From positions 1 through 64,000 of the forward strand of contig JASHOB010000019.1 of the NCBI GenBank assembly GCA_030041335.1: DNA of 64,000 nt, written 5' to 3'. The notes below the pieces were generated by a model that saw nothing but the letters and a program-made list of their open reading frames with translations, ran no database searches and was not told where the DNA came from. Position 1 is the stretch's first letter. Every line of letters begins with the position of its first letter. Source of the stretch: Alphaproteobacteria bacterium. GTDB taxonomy: Bacteria; Pseudomonadota; Alphaproteobacteria; ATCC43930; CGMCC-115725. A program made the translations under genes and the position numbers. Positions 1,025 to 27,245 of the stretch are shown here, piece after piece.

Positions 1025-1543
1025 GTCCTTCTCCCGCCGTTCCGCCCAAATTCGCCGACCGCAGGGATCGAGGCAAGGGGGGCAAGCCATGCGGTTCTGG
1101 TGAAAAGCGCTCGATCGCCGCGCCGCTAGGCGCGACCCGTGGCTGACCCCAGTAGCGGTCAATCTCAGGACGTTGTTCACTCGATCCGGTTGGCGGCACC
1201 GAGGGCTTCCGTGGTCTCTTTGCAAAAATTCAAAGTGTCCCGCATCAAGTGGCCAAATGTGAGTGCCGCGTCCGTAATGTCCTGTGGGTGAAAGCTCGTG
1301 TTTGTGGGTCCGTCTCGGTCTTTAAATGACGTATTCGAATTTGACACGGTTGGCGTCTCCGATGGGTCACTCCACGGTGGCGGACTATCTAGAAAAGCAT
1401 GGATCCAATCCTATTGAAGTGTAAACATTCCATCGCAGGCATTCTGGCAGGCGCCTAAAGAAGGACGGAAGTCGTGATCGCTCTCGGCCGTCCAACGGTT
1501 CCGGCCCGCGCGATCCCTTATAACGCCCTCGTCCTCAGTTGGA
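1025..1543. other. 519-base stretch with no supported gene
   Basis: Only short frames without recognisable protein character occur here on either strand. It holds the upstream region of the GST gene and the downstream end of the TetR gene. I see no RNA gene, repeat or terminator. Given the transposase remnant to the left, decayed accessory DNA is plausible but not shown. Confidence 0.5.
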
Positions 1544-2182
1544 CTAACGAAGCAGGGGCGAGAGAACTTCGGAAAGCGAGACTTCCCAAGGGGCGTCTTC
1601 GATCTTCTCATCTAATCCAAACAGTCTGCGCAGGCGAAGCTCAGCGGTGGCAAAACTCAACAAAGTTCTGGCCGTTCCCGCCGTGTCGTGAGGCTTTGCC
1701 CGCCCCGACGCTACCGCTGCGGCGAGATAGTCAGCCAGCCTCTTTTCCGAGGGCGCAATGGCGGTCACATGCAGAGTTGGACCGAGGTCGGGCTGACGTT
1801 CGGCCTCGGCGATGACGAGACGCTGGAAGCGCACGATTTCGGGCGAAGAGACCAACGCCCGCACACGTTCCAGATAAGCGCGCACACCGTTGCGAGGCTC
1901 AGGCGGCAGCTCTTTCGGCGCAGGGAGCAGGTTCACGAATTGAGCGCAGGCGAACGCGATCGTCTCGCGAAACAAGGCTTCCTTCGAGCCAAAGTGGTCG
2001 TAGACCGTGCGTTTAGTGGTGCCTGCCTGCTCGGCGATACGATCGATGGTGGCCAGGGCATAGCCTTCCCGGAAGAAGACAGATTTGGCGGCGCGCAGGA
2101 TATCCTCGCGGCGCCGGCGCGAGGCGACGCTGCGCCCCCAGCGAGGGGCAAAGGCGGGGCCCGAAGGACGGGTGATAGTCAT
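1544..2182 (-). CDS. TetR/AcrR family transcriptional regulator
   Basis: A 212-residue regulator. Residues of about 20-65 form the TetR DNA-binding domain: RRREDILRAAKSVFFREGY followed by TIDRIAEQAGTTKRTVYDHF and GSKEALF, the typical helix-turn-helix and the helix after it. The C-terminal part would be the ligand-binding dimerisation domain and gives no clue to the inducer. The ATG at 2182 is used; a TTG at 2209 in the same frame would add nine residues that do not belong to the fold. The gene is divergent from a SnoaL-NmrA pair and an inverted repeat lies between them, so it probably represses itself and that pair. Confidence 0.9.
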   Translation of the reverse strand: MTITRPSGPAFAPRWGRSVASRRRREDILRAAKSVFFREGYALATIDRIAEQAGTTKRTVYDHFGSKEALFRETIAFACAQFVNLLPAPKELPPEPRNGVRAYLERVRALVSSPEIVRFQRLVIAEAERQPDLGPTLHVTAIAPSEKRLADYLAAAVASGRAKPHDTAGTARTLLSFATAELRLRRLFGLDEKIEDAPWEVSLSEVLSPLLR

Positions 2183-2203
2183 CGCCGCATCGTGATGAAA
2201 CTC

Positions 2204-2236
2204 TTGCAAAAGTCAACTATACCATATAGTATAGTT
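2204..2236 (+). promoter_or_regulatory. Promoter with a TetR-type operator over its -10 region
   Basis: Bases 2215-2236 form an inverted repeat with perfect 8-base arms AACTATAC and GTATAGTT around a 6-base centre. A plus-strand promoter fits the same bases: -35 TTGCAA at 2204-2209, a 17-base spacer, and -10 TAGTAT at 2227-2232. A repressor bound to the repeat would cover the -10 box. The site lies between the divergent TetR gene and the SnoaL-NmrA pair, the usual position of a TetR operator. Symmetry and position are seen; binding is inferred. Confidence 0.65.
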
Positions 2237-2277
2237 TGTTGGCGGCATAAGCCGTGTTTTCCAGCTGAGGATCGCCC

Positions 2278-2742
2278 ATGGCCGACGATGCGGTACGTGA
2301 TGAGACCCTGCGCTTGATGGGCGCTTATCAGACGCTCATCGCTCAGAAGAAGTGGGACGCCTGGATCGACCTGTGGGCTGAAGATGGCGTGCTTGAGTTC
2401 CCGTATGCTCCGAAAGGACGCAAGGCCCGCTACGCAGGTAAGGCGGAGATAAAGGCCTACATGAGCGGAACGGCTGGCAAGGTCGCCATCGACGAGATCG
2501 CTGATTTGCGGGTGATTCCGGCGCAGGATCCGCGGATTGCGGTGGTGGAGGTCAGTGTCAAGGGCCGCGCGCCCAACACGGGCGCTCGTTATGACCAGAG
2601 CTACGTCACCGTTTTCGAGACGCAAGACGGCAAACTCAAACGCTACCGCGAATACTGGAATCCTTTGATCTCGATCGACGCCCAGGGCGGAGACCGCATC
2701 GCGTGGGAAAGCAGTTTCGGCTCGCCCGAGGCGAAGACGTGA
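2278..2742 (+). CDS. SnoaL-like (NTF2-fold) protein
   Basis: A 154-residue protein with the short alpha+beta cone of the SnoaL/NTF2-like superfamily. It opens with a helix (LRLMGAYQTLIAQKKWDAW), then LWAEDGVLEFPY typical of this fold, and closes with a strand ending KRYREYWNPL. Members are small isomerases, hydratases or ligand-binding proteins; nothing here identifies the substrate. The ATG at 2278 follows the TetR-controlled promoter by about 45 bases. Its stop overlaps the GTG start of the next gene by four bases, so the two are co-transcribed and probably translationally coupled. Confidence 0.8.
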   Translation: MADDAVRDETLRLMGAYQTLIAQKKWDAWIDLWAEDGVLEFPYAPKGRKARYAGKAEIKAYMSGTAGKVAIDEIADLRVIPAQDPRIAVVEVSVKGRAPNTGARYDQSYVTVFETQDGKLKRYREYWNPLISIDAQGGDRIAWESSFGSPEAKT

Positions 2743-3602
2743 GCGCCCCCATTCTCATCCTCGGCGGAAGCGGCAAGACGGGCCGCCGCCTCGCAAAGCA
2801 ACTTCGGAAACAAGGCGCGGTCGTCCGGATCGCCGCCCGTCGGATCGAGGGGCCTGAGTCTGCACGCTTCGACTGGTCGGACACTGCAACCTGGGACGGC
2901 GCCTACAAGGGCGCCCGAGCCGCTTACCTCGTGCCTCCGCCGCGGGGCGGCGACGCCTCCGCTGCAATGATCGCCTTCGTCAAGCAAGCGCTCGACGCGG
3001 GTGTCAAACGCTTTGTGCTTCTCAGCGCTTCATTGCTCCCGGCGGGCGGGCCGGGCGCCGGGCGGGTGCACCAATGGCTGTCGGAGAGCGCACCCGAATG
3101 GGCTGTGCTGCGGCCGAGTTGGTTCATGCAGAACTTCACTGAAGGCGTGCACTTGGATACGATCCGTGACGAATCCGCAATCTATTCCGCCGCCGGCGAT
3201 GGTCGTGTGGGCTTCGTCAGCGCCGAGGACATCGCGGCCTGCGCAGCCTCGGTGCTCACCGTCGACCGTGCGCCCAATGCCGACTTCGTGCTGACGGGTC
3301 CAGAGGCGCTTTCCTACGACAACGTGGCTGCAAGGGTCTCGGGCGTCGCCGGCCGCGCCATCGCCCATCAGCGCATCGACGCGAAGGCGCTCGCTAAGCG
3401 CTACGAAGCAAAGGGACTGCCGGCCCAAGCCGCCATGGTGCTGGCCGCGATGGATGGCATGATCTCTGCCGGCGCCGAGGACCGCACCACCGGCGCAGTG
3501 CGTTTGCTCACCGGGCGCGACCCGGTGAATTTTGAAGCCTTCGCTTTGGCCGAAGGCGTGGTGTGGCAGCGATACCCGGCTGGGAGGCTTGGAGTAGGCT
3601 AG
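2739..3602 (+). CDS. NmrA-like NAD(P)-binding oxidoreductase
   Basis: A 287-residue Rossmann-fold protein of the NmrA/atypical short-chain dehydrogenase group. The cofactor loop GGSGKTGRRLAKQL is at residues of about 8-21. Further on are VKRFVLLSASLLP and WAVLRPSWFMQNF, both typical of the NmrA-like family that includes NAD(P)H:quinone oxidoreductases. The usual SDR YxxxK pair is not seen, as expected for this group. The start is the GTG at 2739, giving a GTGA overlap with the preceding gene; an earlier GTG at 2703 would run far into it. Regulation is presumably shared with the SnoaL gene through the TetR operator. Confidence 0.85.
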   Translation: MSAPILILGGSGKTGRRLAKQLRKQGAVVRIAARRIEGPESARFDWSDTATWDGAYKGARAAYLVPPPRGGDASAAMIAFVKQALDAGVKRFVLLSASLLPAGGPGAGRVHQWLSESAPEWAVLRPSWFMQNFTEGVHLDTIRDESAIYSAAGDGRVGFVSAEDIAACAASVLTVDRAPNADFVLTGPEALSYDNVAARVSGVAGRAIAHQRIDAKALAKRYEAKGLPAQAAMVLAAMDGMISAGAEDRTTGAVRLLTGRDPVNFEAFALAEGVVWQRYPAGRLGVG

Positions 3603-4786: not shown

Positions 4787-5278
4787 ATGATCGAAGACAA
4801 GCCTCAATTCAGTTCACCCGCCTGTGCCATGCATGAGGCGGAGGATGCTTACATGGGCTATGCGACGCCGGCGGAACTGGCGGCGTTTCTCAACGAACTG
4901 CTCGAAGCCGAGCGTGCTGGCTCGCGCGTCACGCTCGAATCGGCACGCGAAGCAGGGAGCGGCGCTGTCGCCGACCTAATGACGGCGATCCAGCGCGACG
5001 AGGCGCGCTGGTGCGCCATGCTGTTGAGTCACATCGAGCGACTGGGAGCCAAGCCGACGGCGACGACGGGTGCATTCTATGGCAAGGCAATGGCGATTGC
5101 GGCGATGAGCGATCGCATCGCTTTTCTCAATCGCGGCCAAGGCTGGGTAGTAAAGAAGCTCCGCGGGATGTTGCCGAAGGTGCGTGACGACAAACTCCAT
5201 GCCGATCTCAAGGCGATGCTCGAGGCCCATGTCGCCAACATCGCGCTCGCGGATCGGATCTTGGCCGAGACGCGTTAA
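4787..5278 (+). CDS. DUF6306 domain protein
   Basis: A 163-residue, mostly helical protein. From family memory the block ELAAFLNELLEAERAG, then LMTAIQRDEARWCAML, then GAFYGKAMAI and LNRGQGWVVKKLR, belongs to DUF6306. The E-E-R and D-E-x-x-W pattern over paired long helices resembles a ferritin-like bundle, but metal binding is not established and no function should be assumed. The ATG at 4787 is used because upstream codons in this frame read through the tRNA-like fragment. Its TAA stop overlaps the stop of the convergent monooxygenase gene within the four bases TTAA. Confidence 0.75.
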   Translation: MIEDKPQFSSPACAMHEAEDAYMGYATPAELAAFLNELLEAERAGSRVTLESAREAGSGAVADLMTAIQRDEARWCAMLLSHIERLGAKPTATTGAFYGKAMAIAAMSDRIAFLNRGQGWVVKKLRGMLPKVRDDKLHADLKAMLEAHVANIALADRILAETR

Positions 5279-6303
5279 CCGGCTGCCCGCGTCGCTTCGC
5301 TGGCGAAATGTGGCATGACGTCGTTGACGAACCAGCCGAGCGAGGCCGCGCTTTCCTCGAACGTCAAATCGCCATAGGCGAAGCGCGCCAGAAAGTAATT
5401 GGCGCCGCAATCGTTGACCAGCTTCTCGATTTCGGCGCGCACCTGCGCCGGCGTGCCGGCCATGATCAGGCGCTGCCGGCCGGGTCCCGACACATCCTGC
5501 ATCGGCACCATAGGCACAAATTTGCGCCACAGCTGGACGAAGCTGCGATACCAGCCGTCATAACCGAACTGGGCGCGCTCTCTCGCCCGCGCCTCGTTGT
5601 CGTCGAGGTAGAGATGCGCGCCGACCGCGAGCTTCGGCATTTTCTTGCCGCTGGCGCCATGGGCCTCGGTCCAGATCCTTTTGTAGAGGTCGGTCATCGG
5701 CTTGGTGTTGTTGGCCGGGCGGTTGAAGGCGCAGGAGATGTTGGCCTTGGCACAGAGCGCGACGCCCTCGGCCGTGCCCGGCGCCTGCCATAGCGGCGGG
5801 TGCGGTCGTTGCAGTGGTCTCATGACGAAGGGCACATCGTGGCATTGGAAATATTTGCCGTCGAAATTCACGACCCCCTTGGTCAAGGCCTGCTCGACGA
5901 CGGCCCAGGCTTCGCGGTTGATGGCCCGACTTTCGAGATGGTCGACGCCGAAATAGCCGATCTCGAACGGTGAAATGCCGCGCCCGGTGCCGACTTCGAG
6001 ACGACCGTGGCTGAGTTGGTCGAGCATGCAGATCTCCTCCGCCAGCCGCAGCGGGTGATAGGTCGTCATCACATAGACCAGGGTGGCGAGGCGCAGCCGC
6101 GTCGTCAGGCGCGACGCAGCGGCGAGAAATAGATTGGGCGACGGCGCCAGGCCGAGCGGCGTGAAATGATGCTCGGTCAGGTGGTAGGCGTAGAAGCCCG
6201 CCTCGTCGTAGCGCTGGATCAGCTTCAATCGATCGTCGAACGTGTCGTGATGCGGCCGGTTCTGTTGGTCGAGATGATCGACCGCTCCGAATGCGATATC
6301 CAT
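5275..6303 (-). CDS. Luciferase-like (LLM class) flavin-dependent monooxygenase
   Basis: A 342-residue TIM-barrel protein of the bacterial luciferase-like family, which uses reduced FMN or F420 to oxidise small substrates. Visible family blocks are YDEAGFYAYHLTEHHF, SRLTTRLRLATLVYV, HPLRLAEEICMLDQLSHGRL and VGTGRGISPFEIGYFGV. The ATG at 6303 is supported by position: it lies 13 bases after the stop of the upstream SDR gene, and it is the last of three closely spaced minus-strand genes. The pairing with two SDRs suggests a small oxidative catabolic route, with substrate unknown. Confidence 0.87.
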   Translation of the reverse strand: MDIAFGAVDHLDQQNRPHHDTFDDRLKLIQRYDEAGFYAYHLTEHHFTPLGLAPSPNLFLAAASRLTTRLRLATLVYVMTTYHPLRLAEEICMLDQLSHGRLEVGTGRGISPFEIGYFGVDHLESRAINREAWAVVEQALTKGVVNFDGKYFQCHDVPFVMRPLQRPHPPLWQAPGTAEGVALCAKANISCAFNRPANNTKPMTDLYKRIWTEAHGASGKKMPKLAVGAHLYLDDNEARARERAQFGYDGWYRSFVQLWRKFVPMVPMQDVSGPGRQRLIMAGTPAQVRAEIEKLVNDCGANYFLARFAYGDLTFEESAASLGWFVNDVMPHFASEATRAAG

Positions 6304-11295: not shown

Positions 11296-12016
11296 GCTGA
11301 TCGTCGACGGGCTCAGCGCCGGTTATGGCGCGGTGCGCGCGCTCGACCAAGTATCGCTGTCGCTCGAACCGGGCGAGACGGTCGCTTTGCTCGGCACCAG
11401 CGGCAACGGCAAGAGCACGCTCATCAACACCATCATGGGACTGGTGCCGCCGCGCTCGGGAACCATATTCCTCGAAGAAAACGGCGTCCGCACGCCGTTG
11501 GCGGGCCGGCGCACCGAGTCGATCGCGGATCTGGGCCTGGCGCTGGTGCCGGAAGGCCGCCGGCTGTTCCCTAGGCTCACCGTCGAGGAAAATCTGTCGC
11601 TCGGCGCCTATCGCGGCGCGGCACGAGGGCAACGCCACGAACGGCTGGCCGAATGTTTCGATGCTTTTCCGGCGTTGAAACAGCGCCGCCGCCAGCTCGC
11701 GGGCAGCATGAGCGGCGGCGAACAGCAAATGCTGGCGTTGGCCCGCGCGCTGATGTCGGCGCCGCGCATCCTGTTGATCGACGAGCCATCGGTTGGCCTC
11801 GCACCCATCCTGGTGAGCCGTTTGATCGACACGATCGCCGCGATGAAGGCGCGTTACCGGCTCTCGGTGCTGATGGCCGAACAGAATTTTCACCAAGCGG
11901 TACGGATCGCCGACCGCGGCTATGTCCTGGTCCAAGGTCGGGTCGCGTTCGTGGGCCGCACCGCAGACGAGCTCCGGAACAGTGCGTTGGTGAAAACTTA
12001 CTATCTCGGCACTTAG
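11276..12016 (+). CDS. livF: ABC transporter ATP-binding protein, LivF family
   Basis: A 246-residue ATPase. It has Walker A GTSGNGKST, the LivF-type LVPEGRRLFPRLTVEENL, signature MSGGEQQMLALARAL, Walker B ILLIDEPSVGL and the His-loop region VLMAEQN, where Glu-Gln replaces His as in many LivF proteins. The start is the GTG at 11276, giving a 20-base overlap with livG and a GAGG site upstream. This is the last gene of the transporter operon. Its stop overlaps that of the convergent DUF3237 gene. Confidence 0.9.
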   Translation: MPISAPRLIVDGLSAGYGAVRALDQVSLSLEPGETVALLGTSGNGKSTLINTIMGLVPPRSGTIFLEENGVRTPLAGRRTESIADLGLALVPEGRRLFPRLTVEENLSLGAYRGAARGQRHERLAECFDAFPALKQRRRQLAGSMSGGEQQMLALARALMSAPRILLIDEPSVGLAPILVSRLIDTIAAMKARYRLSVLMAEQNFHQAVRIADRGYVLVQGRVAFVGRTADELRNSALVKTYYLGT

Positions 12017-12474
12017 AATACTCTGAAGAATTTGAGCGCGACCGCGTTGGGCAGGCGCTCGCCGGTGCACACGAAGACGCTGCGGTTGAGCCAGTCGTGC
12101 GCTGGTGAGGCGCTCGAAAAGCTGGGCGTCGCACGGAAGTACACCTGCGCCGGATCGACCTTATCGCCCGCCAGAAGCTTTGCATTGATGTCGGGCGGCG
12201 CATGACGCAGGCCGCGATTGACCACCGCAATCCGCACCCCGTCCTCGGCACGAATGACATAACGGGCCTCGAGTTCGCTTGCACCGTCGGCGCGAACGAT
12301 CTGCCAATCGGCACCACCGGCCAACACCTCGCCGCGCAGGCGGGGTCCGTCGACGATGCCGCCCAAGATCGGCACCATCCGCTGACGACCTCGCGGCGTC
12401 TCACCCATGTCGACGGCTGGCGCCACTTCTACCCGCGCCTCGAACACGAACTCAAGTTGCGGCGCTTGGACCAA
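12013..12474 (-). CDS. DUF3237 family protein
   Basis: A 153-residue protein. The family signature is visible as GRQRMVPILGGIVDGPRL in pieces: GxxxxVPIxGG, then GEVLAGGADWQIVRADG, RYVIRAEDGVRIAVVNRG, and FRATPSFSSASPAHDWLNRS near the end. These conserved blocks define the family, whose function is not known; a beta-barrel fold is predicted for it. The start is a TTG at 12474 with a strong GGGGAGG five bases ahead and no ATG in this frame nearby. The stop overlaps the stop of convergent livF. Confidence 0.82.
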   Translation of the reverse strand: MVQAPQLEFVFEARVEVAPAVDMGETPRGRQRMVPILGGIVDGPRLRGEVLAGGADWQIVRADGASELEARYVIRAEDGVRIAVVNRGLRHAPPDINAKLLAGDKVDPAQVYFRATPSFSSASPAHDWLNRSVFVCTGERLPNAVALKFFRVF

Positions 12475-15914: not shown

Positions 15915-15968
15915 GTGACTTCGCCAATGCTAGAACCGCCATCCGCCTCCGGAGAGGAGAAATCGCGC

Positions 15969-16406
15969 ATGCAGGGACCGGTCCGCATCAACGATCAGTT
16001 AAGCGTCGCAGGCCAAATCACGCCTGCGGAAGTGACGACGCTGGTGAACCAGGGGTTCTGGACGATCATCAACAATCGTCCCGACAATGAAGAGCCCGGC
16101 CAGCCCGCCGCTGCCACGGTTGAGGCCGAGGCCAAACGCCAAGGGCTGCAATATCTCTATCAGCCGGTGACGACCGCGACGATTTCCAAGGCGGATGTCA
16201 CCGCGTTCCACAATGCCCTGCAGCGCGCGCCAAAGCCCGTACTCGCGCATTGCCGCAGTGGCACGCGCTGCTATCTGCTATGGGGCCTGTCGCAGGTCCT
16301 GTTCGACAATGCGAGCCCGCTCGCCATCGTCGCCGAGGCCAGCCATAAGGGCTACGATCTCCGGGTCCTGCCGCAGCTGGCGGAAAGGATGCAGGCGGAG
16401 CGATAG
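15969..16406 (+). CDS. DUF442/TIGR01244 family sulfurtransferase or phosphatase
   Basis: A 145-residue protein with the beta-lactamase-hydrolase-like phosphatase fold. It has INDQLSVAGQITPAEV and GFWTIINNRPDNEEPGQP at the front and the active-site P-loop HCRSGTRC near residue 95, where Cys is the nucleophile. The family is related to dual-specificity phosphatases and appears in sulfide oxidation and persulfide metabolism as a sulfurtransferase; which role applies here is not evident. The ATG at 15969 has GGAGAGGAG upstream. No transposed partner genes (SQR, PDO) are adjacent. Confidence 0.87.
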   Translation: MQGPVRINDQLSVAGQITPAEVTTLVNQGFWTIINNRPDNEEPGQPAAATVEAEAKRQGLQYLYQPVTTATISKADVTAFHNALQRAPKPVLAHCRSGTRCYLLWGLSQVLFDNASPLAIVAEASHKGYDLRVLPQLAERMQAER

Positions 16407-18678: not shown

Positions 18679-20571
18679 TCAGTTTCCGAAGAGGCTTTTC
18701 AATGCGCCGCCGATACCCTGCCCCACTTTGCCGACGCCGTTGGCGGCGCCGCCAATGACTTTGACCGGGGCGGTGACGATGCCCTTGGCAATGCCGGCGA
18801 CGTCCGGCTGGAAGCTGAGATGATCCCAACGGCCGCTGACGATTACCGGCACGGTGACAATTCCCGCCATGATCTTCGGTTCGACGTGGTAGTTGAGCGT
18901 GCGCTGCGGCAGATTAACCGTGCCGGTTCCGTGTGCCTCGACCGCGCCGATGGTGGCTACGAGATTGCTGCTGCTCATGATGCCGTTGCGAATCGTGTTG
19001 CTGGCGCTGGCACGGTCGATTGCCGTGGCGCCTCTGCCGGTTGCAAACGCGGCGGCGGTGTTCATCAGCATCCCGGCGAGATCGATGCCGCCAAGGGAGC
19101 CATGCGCGAGGCGAAACGATGACGCGCCGGACAGGGTCGAGACCAAATCCCGTTGGCTGTTGCCGTGCGCCGTGCCCGACAGCGTGAAGCTTGCCGAACC
19201 GCTAATCGAACTGCCGCCGCCGGCATCGCGGAGCAACGGACCGATATCGACGGCGGAGATCGAACCGTCGACCGTCATCGCCGCGATGTCCCTGGAGCAA
19301 TCGAGACCGATGGTGCCCTTGGCGCTGCCGCGATAGAGCGCCACGTTGCCGATACTGAGCCTTAGCTTGCCGTCGTCGAGATTGAGCTTGGCGGCCGCCG
19401 CGCCCATTTGCAGCTGGCGATATCTGACGCTCGATGCATCGATGGTGAGTTCGGCGTCGAACTGGCGCAGCAGGCGCGGATCGAGGGTCGCGGTGCTCCA
19501 TCCTGGCGTCGACGGACCGAGATAGGGATTGAAATCCAACCTGTCGATCCGCAGCGTGCCGGCGATCCTGGGTTTGTTGCCCGCGCTGAGCGTGACGGTG
19601 CCCGTGGCGCGGGTTGTGTCGAGCGAAAAAGTCGCATTGGAGAATTCGGCCGAGCCGGCCACCGCACGAACGGCACCGCTGACCGCAAGCGCGCCGAAGC
19701 CGCGCTTCGGCAGGTCGATATCGAGGGCTGACCATGTCGCCAGATCGCGCACCGACGGTACGGCGAGATCGGCGTTGCCGTCGAGCACCAGAGCGCCAAG
19801 CCCGCCAGTCTCCCCGCTGGCGACCTCGCCAGCGAATTTGACGGTGAGCGGTGCCGATTGCAATGCCGCGACGACATGGCTTTTGCCCGCGGGACGCAAC
19901 AGCGCGCCGCCGTGGTCGAGCGTCATCGAGAATCTAATCTTTTGCCCCCGCCACATCGCGTCGCCCTCTGCGGCGAGAGACACACCGAGGTGCGGTGCCG
20001 AGAGCGTCGCTGCGATTCGTTGCAGCTCGTAGCGCCGATCGTTGCGGCGATCGACAACGACAATATCGCCATCCGCGATCGCGACATACTCGGCGCCGAG
20101 GCGCGACAACGCCGCGAGCGCGGCCATCGCCGGGGGCGGGGCGGTCACCGCCGCTGGCGCCGCCGCCCGATCGGCAGCAGCGGATTCGCCCGACCGCCGG
20201 TTGGGCGGGCTCGGCGCCGCGAGTTCGAAAACAATTGCCGGCGCCACCAGCGCCAGCCGCTCGATTTCAATCCGCCGCGACAAGAGCGGCAGCAATTTGA
20301 CCGCGATATCAAGCTCTTTGATCCTTACCGTTGCCGAGGATTGCGCCCATGGGCTCCCGGTAATCGTCACGTCGCTCGCCGCGAGCTTGAACGTGGGAAA
20401 AAATTGCAACGAGAGCGGGCCTTTGACCGTCAATTTGTGGCCGGTGGCGTCGCCTAGTTGCCTTAGAACCTGCGCCTTGATGACGTCTGCCGGCAAGAGA
20501 AGCGACACCAGGGCGATCGCCACAATCGGCACCGCGACAATGACGGCCACAATGCTTGCCAGGCGTTTCAT
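18679..20571 (-). CDS. AsmA family protein
   Basis: A 630-residue protein with one N-terminal membrane anchor (IVAVIVAVPIVAIALVSLLL) and a long periplasmic beta-rich body. The first block after the anchor, ATGHKLTVKGPLSLQFFPTF then LAASDVTI, is typical of AsmA. The C-terminal AsmA_2-like part has GxxxIDLAGMLMNTAAAF and LRYHVEPKIM-like LNYHVEPKIMAG. AsmA-like proteins belong to the bridge-type lipid transfer group acting between the inner and outer membranes. The ATG at 20571 follows GGGAAGG and places the anchor at the very N-terminus. Confidence 0.88.
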   Translation of the reverse strand: MKRLASIVAVIVAVPIVAIALVSLLLPADVIKAQVLRQLGDATGHKLTVKGPLSLQFFPTFKLAASDVTITGSPWAQSSATVRIKELDIAVKLLPLLSRRIEIERLALVAPAIVFELAAPSPPNRRSGESAAADRAAAPAAVTAPPPAMAALAALSRLGAEYVAIADGDIVVVDRRNDRRYELQRIAATLSAPHLGVSLAAEGDAMWRGQKIRFSMTLDHGGALLRPAGKSHVVAALQSAPLTVKFAGEVASGETGGLGALVLDGNADLAVPSVRDLATWSALDIDLPKRGFGALAVSGAVRAVAGSAEFSNATFSLDTTRATGTVTLSAGNKPRIAGTLRIDRLDFNPYLGPSTPGWSTATLDPRLLRQFDAELTIDASSVRYRQLQMGAAAAKLNLDDGKLRLSIGNVALYRGSAKGTIGLDCSRDIAAMTVDGSISAVDIGPLLRDAGGGSSISGSASFTLSGTAHGNSQRDLVSTLSGASSFRLAHGSLGGIDLAGMLMNTAAAFATGRGATAIDRASASNTIRNGIMSSSNLVATIGAVEAHGTGTVNLPQRTLNYHVEPKIMAGIVTVPVIVSGRWDHLSFQPDVAGIAKGIVTAPVKVIGGAANGVGKVGQGIGGALKSLFGN

Positions 20572-20724
20572 CACGAGCCTTCCCGGTTGCCGGCTTGCGT
20601 CATTGTAACGCATGGAGTGTGCGGCATGCGAGGCAGGCCGGGAATTGCCATGCCGCCACGCCCGTTGAATGGACAGATCGACGTTTTCCGCGCAAGATAA
20701 CGGCGGTGTGGAAAGGAACGCGTA

Positions 20725-21702
20725 ATGGCCGAAGAAGAGATCGATTGGGAAATTCCGGAAGCGGCGCAACCGAAGCCAAGCGAATTCGCGTTCGATCTGG
20801 ACCATGCGCTAAGCTCAGTCGTCGGCATCCAAGCGACCATCCCGGACGACGCGTTCACCGCACAGACGCTCGGTACCCAGCGCAGCGGCAGCGGCGTCAT
20901 CATCCGCGACAGCGGTCTCATCGTGACCATCGGCTACCTCATTACCGAGGCCGAGACGGTTTGGATCACGACCGCCGACGGCCGCGCGACGCCGGGCACG
21001 GTCGCCGCCTACGATCAAGAAACCGGCTTCGGCTTGATCCAGGCACTGGGCCGGCTTGGCACGCCGGCCATCGCCATCGGGCAATCCTCAGCCCTTGAGA
21101 ACGGTGCGCCGCTGGTGGTGGCCGCCGGCGCTCGACGCCATTCCGTGAGCGCGCATTTGATCGCGCGCCAAGAATTTCCAGGCAGTTGGGAATATCTTCT
21201 CGACGAGGCCCTGTTCACGGCGCCCTTGCATCCGTTCTGGGGCGGCGCCGCGGCGATCGATCATGCCGGCAAGCTGGTCGGCGTCGGCTCGCTTCATGTC
21301 CAGCAATCAGTGCCCGGCGGCTCGCCGCGCGACATCAACATGATCGTGCCGATCGATCTCCTGACCCCGATCCTCGACGAGCTGTTGACGTACGGCCGGC
21401 CCAATCATCCACCACGGCCGTGGATCGGCGCCTATAGCGGCGAGACCGAAGGACGGGTCGTCATCGCCGGTGTGTTGCCGCAGGGCCCGGCAATGCAAGC
21501 CGGGGTGCGTGTCGGCGATATCGTCTGGGCGGTACGCGACGAAGCAATCAGCAGTCTTGCCGATTTTTATCGCAAATTGTGGAAGTCGGGCAGCGCCGGT
21601 ACGGAAATCCCGATCGAGCTGGTTCGCGACGGGCGCACGGTCTGGGTTCGCGTGAAGTCACGCGACCGTGGTTCCATGTTGAAGAAGAAATCGCTGCAGT
21701 AG
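20725..21702 (+). CDS. HtrA/DegP-like protein with PDZ domain, apparently lacking the catalytic triad
   Basis: A 325-residue protein with a trypsin-like S1C domain (about 25-225) and a PDZ domain (about 235-315, with GVLPQGPAMQAGVRVGDIVWAV). Aligning by eye to HtrA, GSGVIIRDSGLIVTIGYLI has Tyr71 where TNNHV has the catalytic His; DQETGFGLI has Gly101 where DxxTDLALL has Asp; and PFWGG has Trp172 where GNSGG has the Ser nucleophile. All three positions are replaced, so proteolysis is unlikely. No signal peptide is seen, so it is probably cytoplasmic. A peptide-binding or scaffold role is an inference. The ATG at 20725 has AAGGA seven bases upstream. Confidence 0.85.
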   Translation: MAEEEIDWEIPEAAQPKPSEFAFDLDHALSSVVGIQATIPDDAFTAQTLGTQRSGSGVIIRDSGLIVTIGYLITEAETVWITTADGRATPGTVAAYDQETGFGLIQALGRLGTPAIAIGQSSALENGAPLVVAAGARRHSVSAHLIARQEFPGSWEYLLDEALFTAPLHPFWGGAAAIDHAGKLVGVGSLHVQQSVPGGSPRDINMIVPIDLLTPILDELLTYGRPNHPPRPWIGAYSGETEGRVVIAGVLPQGPAMQAGVRVGDIVWAVRDEAISSLADFYRKLWKSGSAGTEIPIELVRDGRTVWVRVKSRDRGSMLKKKSLQ

Positions 21703-26651: not shown

Positions 26652-27158
26652 CTAGCGCCGCCTTGCGGCCTTCTTCGCCGGCTTCGCTTTGGCCTTCACC
26701 TTGGGTTTTGCCTTGGGTTTTGCCTTGGGTTTTGCCTTGGCCTTGGGCGCCGCCTTGCGCGCCGGTCTTGCCCGCGCCGGGGCCGGCTGAGCATGACGCT
26801 GGCTTAGCCCAAAGCGGTTGCCGAGCGGATCGGTGAATTGTGCCAAAATGGTTTCCGCGCCCGGGGCGCCGCCGATATTGGTCTTGGGCATCGCCACCGT
26901 GCCGCCCGCTTCGACCGCCTTCGCCAGGGCGGCGTCGACATCGTCGACCTCGACATAGAAGGTGACGTGACTCGAGCCAAAGGCGCCGGGCGCGCCGATG
27001 CCGCCCTGAATGCCATAATCCCGGGCACCGGTATTGACCATGCCGTAATTCATTGGATTGCTGGTATCGATCGCCCAATCGAACACTTCGGCAAAAAATC
27101 TCTGCAGTCGCTCCGCCTCGGGCGAGATAATCTCAAAATGGACCACGCGGTTTGGCAT
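26652..27158 (-). CDS. VOC (glyoxalase/bleomycin-resistance) fold protein with lysine-rich tail
   Basis: A 168-residue protein. Residues of about 1-120 form a VOC domain: VVHFEIISPEAERLQRFFAEVF, DYGIQGGIG, VTFYVEVDDVDAALAKAVEAGG and TDPLGNRFGL. The family includes lyases, dioxygenases and antibiotic-binding proteins. After RFGLSQRH the chain becomes a 45-residue AKPK-type tail, ending KKAARRR. The tail is unusual for VOC proteins and may bind nucleic acid or polyanions. The ATG at 27158 is chosen: GGAGG is eight bases ahead, while the ATG at 27173 overlaps that site. Confidence 0.8.
   Translation of the reverse strand: MPNRVVHFEIISPEAERLQRFFAEVFDWAIDTSNPMNYGMVNTGARDYGIQGGIGAPGAFGSSHVTFYVEVDDVDAALAKAVEAGGTVAMPKTNIGGAPGAETILAQFTDPLGNRFGLSQRHAQPAPARARPARKAAPKAKAKPKAKPKAKPKVKAKAKPAKKAARRR
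26701..26736 (-). repeat. Three perfect 12-base tandem units in the VOC gene tail
   Basis: TTGGGTTTTGCC is repeated three times without change at 26701, 26713 and 26725, with decayed copies on both sides. Read on the minus strand it codes A-K-P-K steps. Exact identity points to recent slippage expansion. Confidence 0.85.
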
Positions 27159-27245
27159 CGGTTCGTCCTCCATCGTTCGCCGCGATTGCCAACGACCATA
27201 GTATACGTCAGGCTTGCATAAGGCCGCTCGCGATTTCTCAGCATC

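Follow-up and report, generated by a model that had tools for sequence, protein, structure and literature searches.

The HtrA/Deg proteases, among them DegS, DegP, DegQ and HhoA, make up MEROPS family S1C. A domain of this type that has lost catalysis and been kept for binding has been described in magnetotactic bacteria, in the protein MamO; there the HtrA-type trypsin domain keeps the His and Asp of the catalytic triad and has Thr in place of Ser, metal is bound by a di-histidine motif, and the protein has a transporter domain as well (PMC4794232). A survey from 2008 puts the number of inactive homologues at two among 247 trypsin-like proteins from 91 prokaryotic genomes (PMC2605481). No paper on the family described below was found among the matches listed from the open-licence PMC literature.

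The protein considered here is an HtrA-like pseudoprotease of 325 residues encoded in the window (the whole 64,000-nucleotide stretch of DNA that was analysed), its ORF being taken from a listing in which the first ATG, GTG or TTG serves as the start (Table 1). The original prediction, made from the DNA letters, was of an HtrA/DegP-like ORF with trypsin-like and PDZ domains, and both domains are indeed found above the Pfam cut-offs (Trypsin_2 with 52.4 bits against a cut-off of 27.6, PDZ_2 with 44.2 bits against 27); Pfam finds no third domain, as trypsin and PDZ families alone pass these cut-offs. All the NCBIfam HtrA models listed (DegS, DegP, DegQ and HhoA) score far below cut-off, the best reaching 81.7 against 416.2, and the nearest solved chains found by HMMER are those of DegS and DegP (DegS 5jd8, E 5.7e-18). 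A putative ribosome binding site stands shortly before the ATG, and there is no space for an export signal because just 8 open codons precede the ATG in the stop-to-stop frame of 333 codons, so that the original prediction stands on these two points as well. A scan for promoters and terminators between positions 20500 and 21950 found none. Fusion to other domains was considered for some family members with very long frames (for example L004, 639 codons; L105, 721; L107, 1210) and rejected: by eye their upstream parts are Arg-rich and read out of frame, and for that reason they are taken to be GC-rich open frames that contain no domains.

Table 1 Positions of the features discussed; coordinates without a locus prefix refer to the window.
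Feature	Position	Strand	Basis and comments
AAAGGA, putative ribosome binding site, 7 nt 5' of ATG	20712..20717	+	Read from sequence
HtrA-like pseudoprotease CDS, 325 aa, stop included	20725..21702	+	ORF; orthologues at 53-80% identity in 12 of 20 other genomes
Trypsin-like domain, residues 55-187	20887..21285	+	Pfam PF13365, E 1.3e-13; AlphaFold2 model vs HtrA protease domains
Tyr71 codon, catalytic His column	20935..20937	+	Alignments; Y 184, F 3 of 187
Gly101 codon, catalytic Asp column	21025..21027	+	Alignments; G 187 of 187
Trp155-Glu156-Tyr157, family signature	21187..21195	+	Each 187 of 187; in 12 canonical HtrAs Y/F/S, D/G/Q/E/T (Glu in 2), D/F/S/R
His169 codon, first Asn of canonical NPGNSGG	21229..21231	+	H 170 of 187; N in 12 of 12 canonical
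Trp172 codon, Asn column before catalytic Ser	21238..21240	+	W 175 of 187; N in 12 of 12 canonical
Gly173 codon, catalytic Ser column	21241..21243	+	Alignments; G 151, S 18, A 13, T 2, Q 2, N 1 of 187
Presumed carboxylate-loop segment (PPRPWIGAY region), PDZ start, residues 229-237	21409..21435	+	Mean entropy 1.14 bits
PDZ domain, residues 234-311	21424..21657	+	Pfam PF13180, E 2.5e-11
GGDEF-EAL gene downstream of distant member	L182:5814-7529	same as member	Pfam
GGDEF-EAL gene downstream of distant member	L191:2426-4150	- (same as member)	Pfam
GGDEF-EAL gene downstream of distant member	L195:2661-4541	- (same as member)	Clustering only
GGDEF-EAL gene downstream of distant member	L200:2713-4680	- (same as member)	Pfam
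GGDEF-EAL gene downstream of distant member	L186:1492-3126	- (same as member)	Pfam

A single-chain AlphaFold2 model built from 52 family sequences (mean pLDDT 91.4, pTM 0.88) has DegP, DegQ and DegS chains as its best Foldseek matches (DegP entry 3mh6, E 9e-22). With VIA-align, plant Deg1 is superimposed on the model with Z of 24.9 and an rmsd of 5.7 over 284 aligned residues, as against an rmsd of 2.3-2.6 over 175-179 residues for chains comprising the protease domain only (6z0e: Z 21.9, rmsd 2.3, 175 aligned); since these fit more closely than the full Deg1 chain, it would be the relative orientation of the domains, more than the domain itself, that differs. MamO is absent from the fold matches listed for either program, from which no exclusion follows. 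Taken together, model and sequence matches suggest that the window protein is an HtrA homologue by descent, in which a Trypsin_2 domain of predicted chymotrypsin-like fold and a C-terminal PDZ domain would be set in the HtrA-type arrangement. The likeness to the HtrA/Deg proteases thus extends to the order of the domains, the sequence match to DegS and the predicted fold, whereas the triad, the oxyanion Gly and any signal or anchor are missing, and the cleft has new, near-fixed residues of its own.

The triad columns were assigned from HMMER alignments to three solved chains (DegS 5jd8, DegS 3gcn and the DegP-like 22kg) and from a MAFFT alignment with 13 HtrA-like homologues, 12 of which have an intact triad. 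Both methods place Tyr71 in the catalytic His column, Gly101 in the Asp column and Gly173 in the Ser column, with Trp172 in the Asn column that precedes the catalytic Ser and Phe171 in that of the oxyanion Gly; the Ser column is fixed at Gly173 because H169-P-F-W-G173-G aligns without a gap to N-x-G-N-S-G. All three triad positions had originally been predicted to be substituted, by Tyr71, Gly101 and Trp172, and this is correct as to the loss of all three and as to the first two residues, but for the Ser it is Gly173, not Trp172, that should be read. What one would look for in an active enzyme is accordingly missing, both the His-Asp-Ser triad itself and the oxyanion Gly of G-N-S-G-G, which is replaced by Phe171. 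The window protein and MamO are alike in having an HtrA-type trypsin domain without catalysis (here judged from the residues), and they differ in that the window protein has lost all three residues (now Tyr71, Gly101 and Gly173), has a PDZ domain, has no transporter domain and is predicted to be cytoplasmic.

The same substitutions recur throughout the family. Counts refer to 187 distinct sequences, the window protein included, after removal of the window's own copy (L001) and of L021, a canonical HtrA with His at 71 that had been grouped by score with the more distant members; 15 of the 85 matches from the class-wide genome spread lie outside the triad counts, and the comparison set consists of 12 canonical (active-type) HtrAs only. 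The residues at positions 71, 101 and 173 are YGG in 151 members, YGS in 18, YGA in 11, FGA in two, YGQ in two, and YGT, FGT and YGN in one each, and in the 88 rows of the close group (87 distinct proteins, the window protein and its copy L001 both being counted) Tyr71, Gly101 and Trp172 are all present without exception. In the canonical set, by comparison, His, Asp, the oxyanion Gly, Asn and Ser occupy their columns in 12 of 12, the oxyanion Gly being found in only one of the 187 members. The loss of the triad is thus no recent event, the substitutions at 71 and 101 being shared across the aligned family. The original prediction had named an intact triad elsewhere in the chain, or a triad in all orthologues, as findings that would speak against it, and had proposed a search of orthologues for the same substitutions: His occurs nowhere in columns 66-76 of the 187 members, none of them carries the triad, and Tyr or Phe at 71 is combined with Gly at 101 in every one. 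It must be remembered, however, that Ser173 is present in 18 members (in none of these together with His71 or Asp101), which speaks against any strict claim that the family has no Ser there.

Besides losing these residues, the family has fixed others. Among the residues found in more than 90% of members and in at most one canonical HtrA are Gly70, Tyr71, Glu75, Gly101, Gly103, Trp155, Tyr157, Phe164, His169, Trp172, Gly188, Ser189, Leu190, Asn205 and Met206. The near-fixed polar or aromatic residues of the cleft segments are Tyr71 (184 of 187), Glu75 (186), Asp97 (184), Glu156 (187), His169 (170) and Trp172 (175); Asp97 is also Asp in all 12 canonical HtrAs and Glu156 is shared by two of them, while His169 is replaced by Y, I, N, F, V or R in 17 members. 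In one locus (L060, ~4927-5724, +) a second, different HtrA-like frame lies just upstream of the family member; it scores 29 bits to the query and is also without the triad, with Ala, Gly and Ala in place of its residues.

The strongest conservation of the family lies in the former active-site cleft: over the 187 members the mean entropy is 0.92 bits in the cleft segments, as against 1.98 bits for the rest of the protease domain. In a rotation test of these segments the observed placement was alone, out of 202 rotations, in having so low an entropy, a result that is partly circular and to be taken as descriptive because the segments, although drawn from the known fold, were chosen after the invariant columns had been seen. 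Judging from the fold, the near-fixed residues would neighbour one another in space. Within the PDZ domain the mean entropy is 2.01 bits over residues 238-312 and 1.14 bits over residues 229-237, which we take to be the carboxylate-loop segment of HtrA PDZ structures. The original prediction emphasised the PDZ ligand groove; conservation is strongest in the cleft instead, with this segment not far behind.

In the pairs compared, the gene is under purifying selection. In 16 of 17 chosen pairs dN/dS (NG86) is 0.088-0.339, the exception being a paralogue pair at 45% identity with a value of 0.527 and dS near 1, and no internal stop was seen among the matches listed in the class and phylum spreads, down to 32% identity.

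In a tree from which the five key columns had been left out, the family forms a branch separate from the 12 canonical HtrAs with 100/100 support, in a calculation made without L165 and L168 and in which the bootstrap had not settled; a quick tree agrees on the split and flags L165 as a long branch. Signals were sought by a crude hydrophobicity scan, which flagged a stretch near the start in 26 of 193 member frames (duplicates still included) and left 167 unflagged; one of these flags, that of L116, is probably false, since the likely start comes after the hydrophobic stretch. The corresponding figure for canonical HtrAs is 10 of 12 with a stretch above 1.6 upstream of the core, including three of the four in the window's own genome (exceptions: L017, 1.41, and the own-genome L022, 0.74), but this makes a rough comparison because 60 aa were scanned for the family and the whole upstream frame for the canonical proteins. 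Signal-bearing rows lie mostly near the family base, in a poorly resolved part of the tree, whereas the window protein falls in a large, almost signal-less group with a single signal-like exception, L189. The signal-peptide-like N-terminus of L189 might be a regain, a retained signal or the product of a wrong start. This distribution suggests that catalysis was lost in an exported ancestor and that the signal was lost afterwards in one lineage, although the order is one that we infer. The window protein is predicted, from its N-terminus, to be cytoplasmic, and the idea of a cytoplasmic, non-proteolytic HtrA homologue with which the analysis began is upheld to the extent that the anatomy allows, there being no triad in any of the 187 members and no space for a signal in this one.

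As to distribution, a close copy (at least 53% identity) is present in 13 of the 21 genomes searched, the window's own counted, and a second, more distant copy (40-45% identity) in six; the own genome has in addition four other HtrA matches, at no more than 34% identity to the window protein. A scan of genomes collected at species level confirmed 299 loci; the best 80 were used, and their sources take in Rhizobium, Bosea, Devosia, Mesorhizobium, Methylocapsa and Acetobacteraceae. Across the class, 65 of 289 genomes match at E<=1e-40 (own included), 20 of the 65 with two copies; across the phylum, 35 of 398 match at E<=1e-30 (own included), two of them lying outside the class. Matches that cover 91-97% of the query at 52-59% identity are also present in 26 plasmid records, from Rhizobium, Neorhizobium, Azospirillum, Phyllobacterium and Pararhizobium. 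Six of these have an annotated gene under the match, called ‘S1C family serine protease’ in five cases and ‘signal protein PDZ’ in one; by sequence match these proteins are close relatives, and the aligned family itself is without the triad. A complete, reduced genome of the class, 1.2 Mb in size (G113, locus L165), keeps one signal-bearing copy, in a 13-kb stretch of 31% GC; the same stretch contains two similar genes that look peroxiredoxin-like by eye. The family gene is, on the other hand, missing from two near-complete genomes of the window's own family (G004 and G006), and this absence, together with the patchy distribution, implies that the pseudoprotease is not generally essential.

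Gene context assigns no function to the window lineage. Around the pseudoprotease gene in the window lie genes for AsmA, a BBP2 porin, an alpha/beta hydrolase and MeaB, and among 81 close-group contexts (80 loci and the window) the largest neighbour clusters are found in 16, the two largest being in the same 16 loci, those with titles being Rhizobium or ‘Rhizobiales’; smaller clusters also recur, for example a transporter-like gene about 1 kb downstream in nine loci. Elsewhere in the window are a glyoxalase-like protein whose long C-terminal tail is rich in Lys, Ala and Pro (26652-27173, -) and a stand-alone BLH_phosphatase gene, encoding a beta-lactamase-hydrolase-like phosphatase domain (15915-16406, +). 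Among the more distant members, with 46 contexts compared, the most frequent neighbour cluster occurs in six. A GGDEF-EAL gene on the same strand is the next gene in four of these 46 and the second gene in one (L186, where it sits behind an M17 aminopeptidase gene), four family-level group codes being represented. Not one of the 81 close contexts gave such a gene in a crude motif search; this says little, however, since three of the five known cases escaped the search too. These neighbours offer a weak lead connecting part of the family, not the window lineage, to cyclic-di-GMP signalling. In L189 the downstream gene (1090-3477, -) combines Sel1 repeats with an MlaA domain, and in L183, L185 and L187 the next gene encodes a small exported-looking protein, MlaC-like by eye, followed by a Sel1-like gene; for that lineage a link to Mla lipid transport is possible. 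Finally, in a Mesorhizobium MAG (L085) a canonical, triad-bearing HtrA gene (~11600-12400, +) lies just downstream of the pseudoprotease gene.

The explanation that we would favour, and to which we give about an even chance of being right, is that of a cytoplasmic HtrA-family pseudoprotease which uses its rebuilt cleft and its PDZ domain to bind peptide or protein ends, so that it would serve as a scaffold, a sensor or a holding chaperone. An ancestral and probably exported HtrA would have lost the entire triad; the old substrate cleft would have been rebuilt around Tyr71, Trp155-Glu156-Tyr157, His169 and Trp172 and then held under strong selection; and one lineage, to which the window protein would belong, would have dropped the export signal. 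The rebuilt cleft and the carboxylate-loop groove of the PDZ domain might then keep a peptide, or a partner's C-terminus, bound without cutting it. The order of these events, the binding role, the ligand and the oligomeric state are all things that we infer. The argument for binding is that catalysis is excluded on the anatomy while the cleft and the PDZ carboxylate loop remain constrained, and that the same dead yet preserved version recurs in many related bacteria, so that it probably binds rather than cuts; a scaffold centred on the PDZ domain fits poorly, most of that domain being less conserved than the cleft.

A conserved cleft is, however, equally compatible with a new catalytic site. 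The rebuilt cleft could have become an active or cofactor-binding site in which Tyr71, His169, Glu156, Asp97 and Trp172 bind or transform a small molecule, a metal or a modified residue in the cytoplasm, the PDZ domain recruiting a partner. The near-fixation of its polar and aromatic residues in the 187 members would suit this, and MamO shows a dead HtrA domain that gained metal binding (PMC4794232). Set against this is the replacement of His169 in 17 of the 187, which argues against a single universal chemistry through that residue, and on the whole we think such a site unlikely. The protein could also combine with an active HtrA as its regulatory subunit, like the dead partners in other protease pairs. 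Its HtrA fold, the four other HtrA matches in its own genome and the adjoining canonical gene in L085 are all in keeping with this, and active HtrAs would be present in the same compartment as the signal-bearing members. The L085 pairing is a single case, however, the four HtrAs of the own genome are at most 34% identical to the window protein, and the latter has no export signal, unlike 10 of the 12 canonical HtrAs in the rough comparison of hydrophobic stretches; we consider this role quite improbable. Continued proteolysis through a relocated or unusual active site, for which Ser173 in 18 of the 187 members might be cited, is very improbable indeed, given that Gly173 is found in the window protein as in 150 other members, that none has a His in columns 66-76 and that the oxyanion Gly is replaced in 186. 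That a protease gene is decaying here and has survived by chance, as the lost catalytic residues and its absence from several relatives might suggest, can hardly be credited in view of the intact frames, the dN/dS values and substitutions of the same class at 71 and 101 in all 187 members, and it is rejected here just as it was in the original prediction.

In at least five publicly available plasmid records this pseudoprotease is called a ‘serine protease’ although nothing in its anatomy suggests cutting, and the near-fixed cleft residues are direct targets for mutation. A broader interpretation may be put forward tentatively, as one that we would doubt rather sooner than believe: in an old and widespread alphaproteobacterial family (class according to record titles), the HtrA cleft may have been turned into a different functional site, with an invariant Trp-Glu-Tyr motif and with Tyr and Trp at or beside the catalytic positions, and the module moved from the envelope to the cytoplasm, there to bind or modify a widely shared ligand. 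Should binding of a cytoplasmic ligand prove true, this would be another reused HtrA beside MamO, arrived at by a different set of changes, and an example of an envelope quality-control module that has moved inside the cell.
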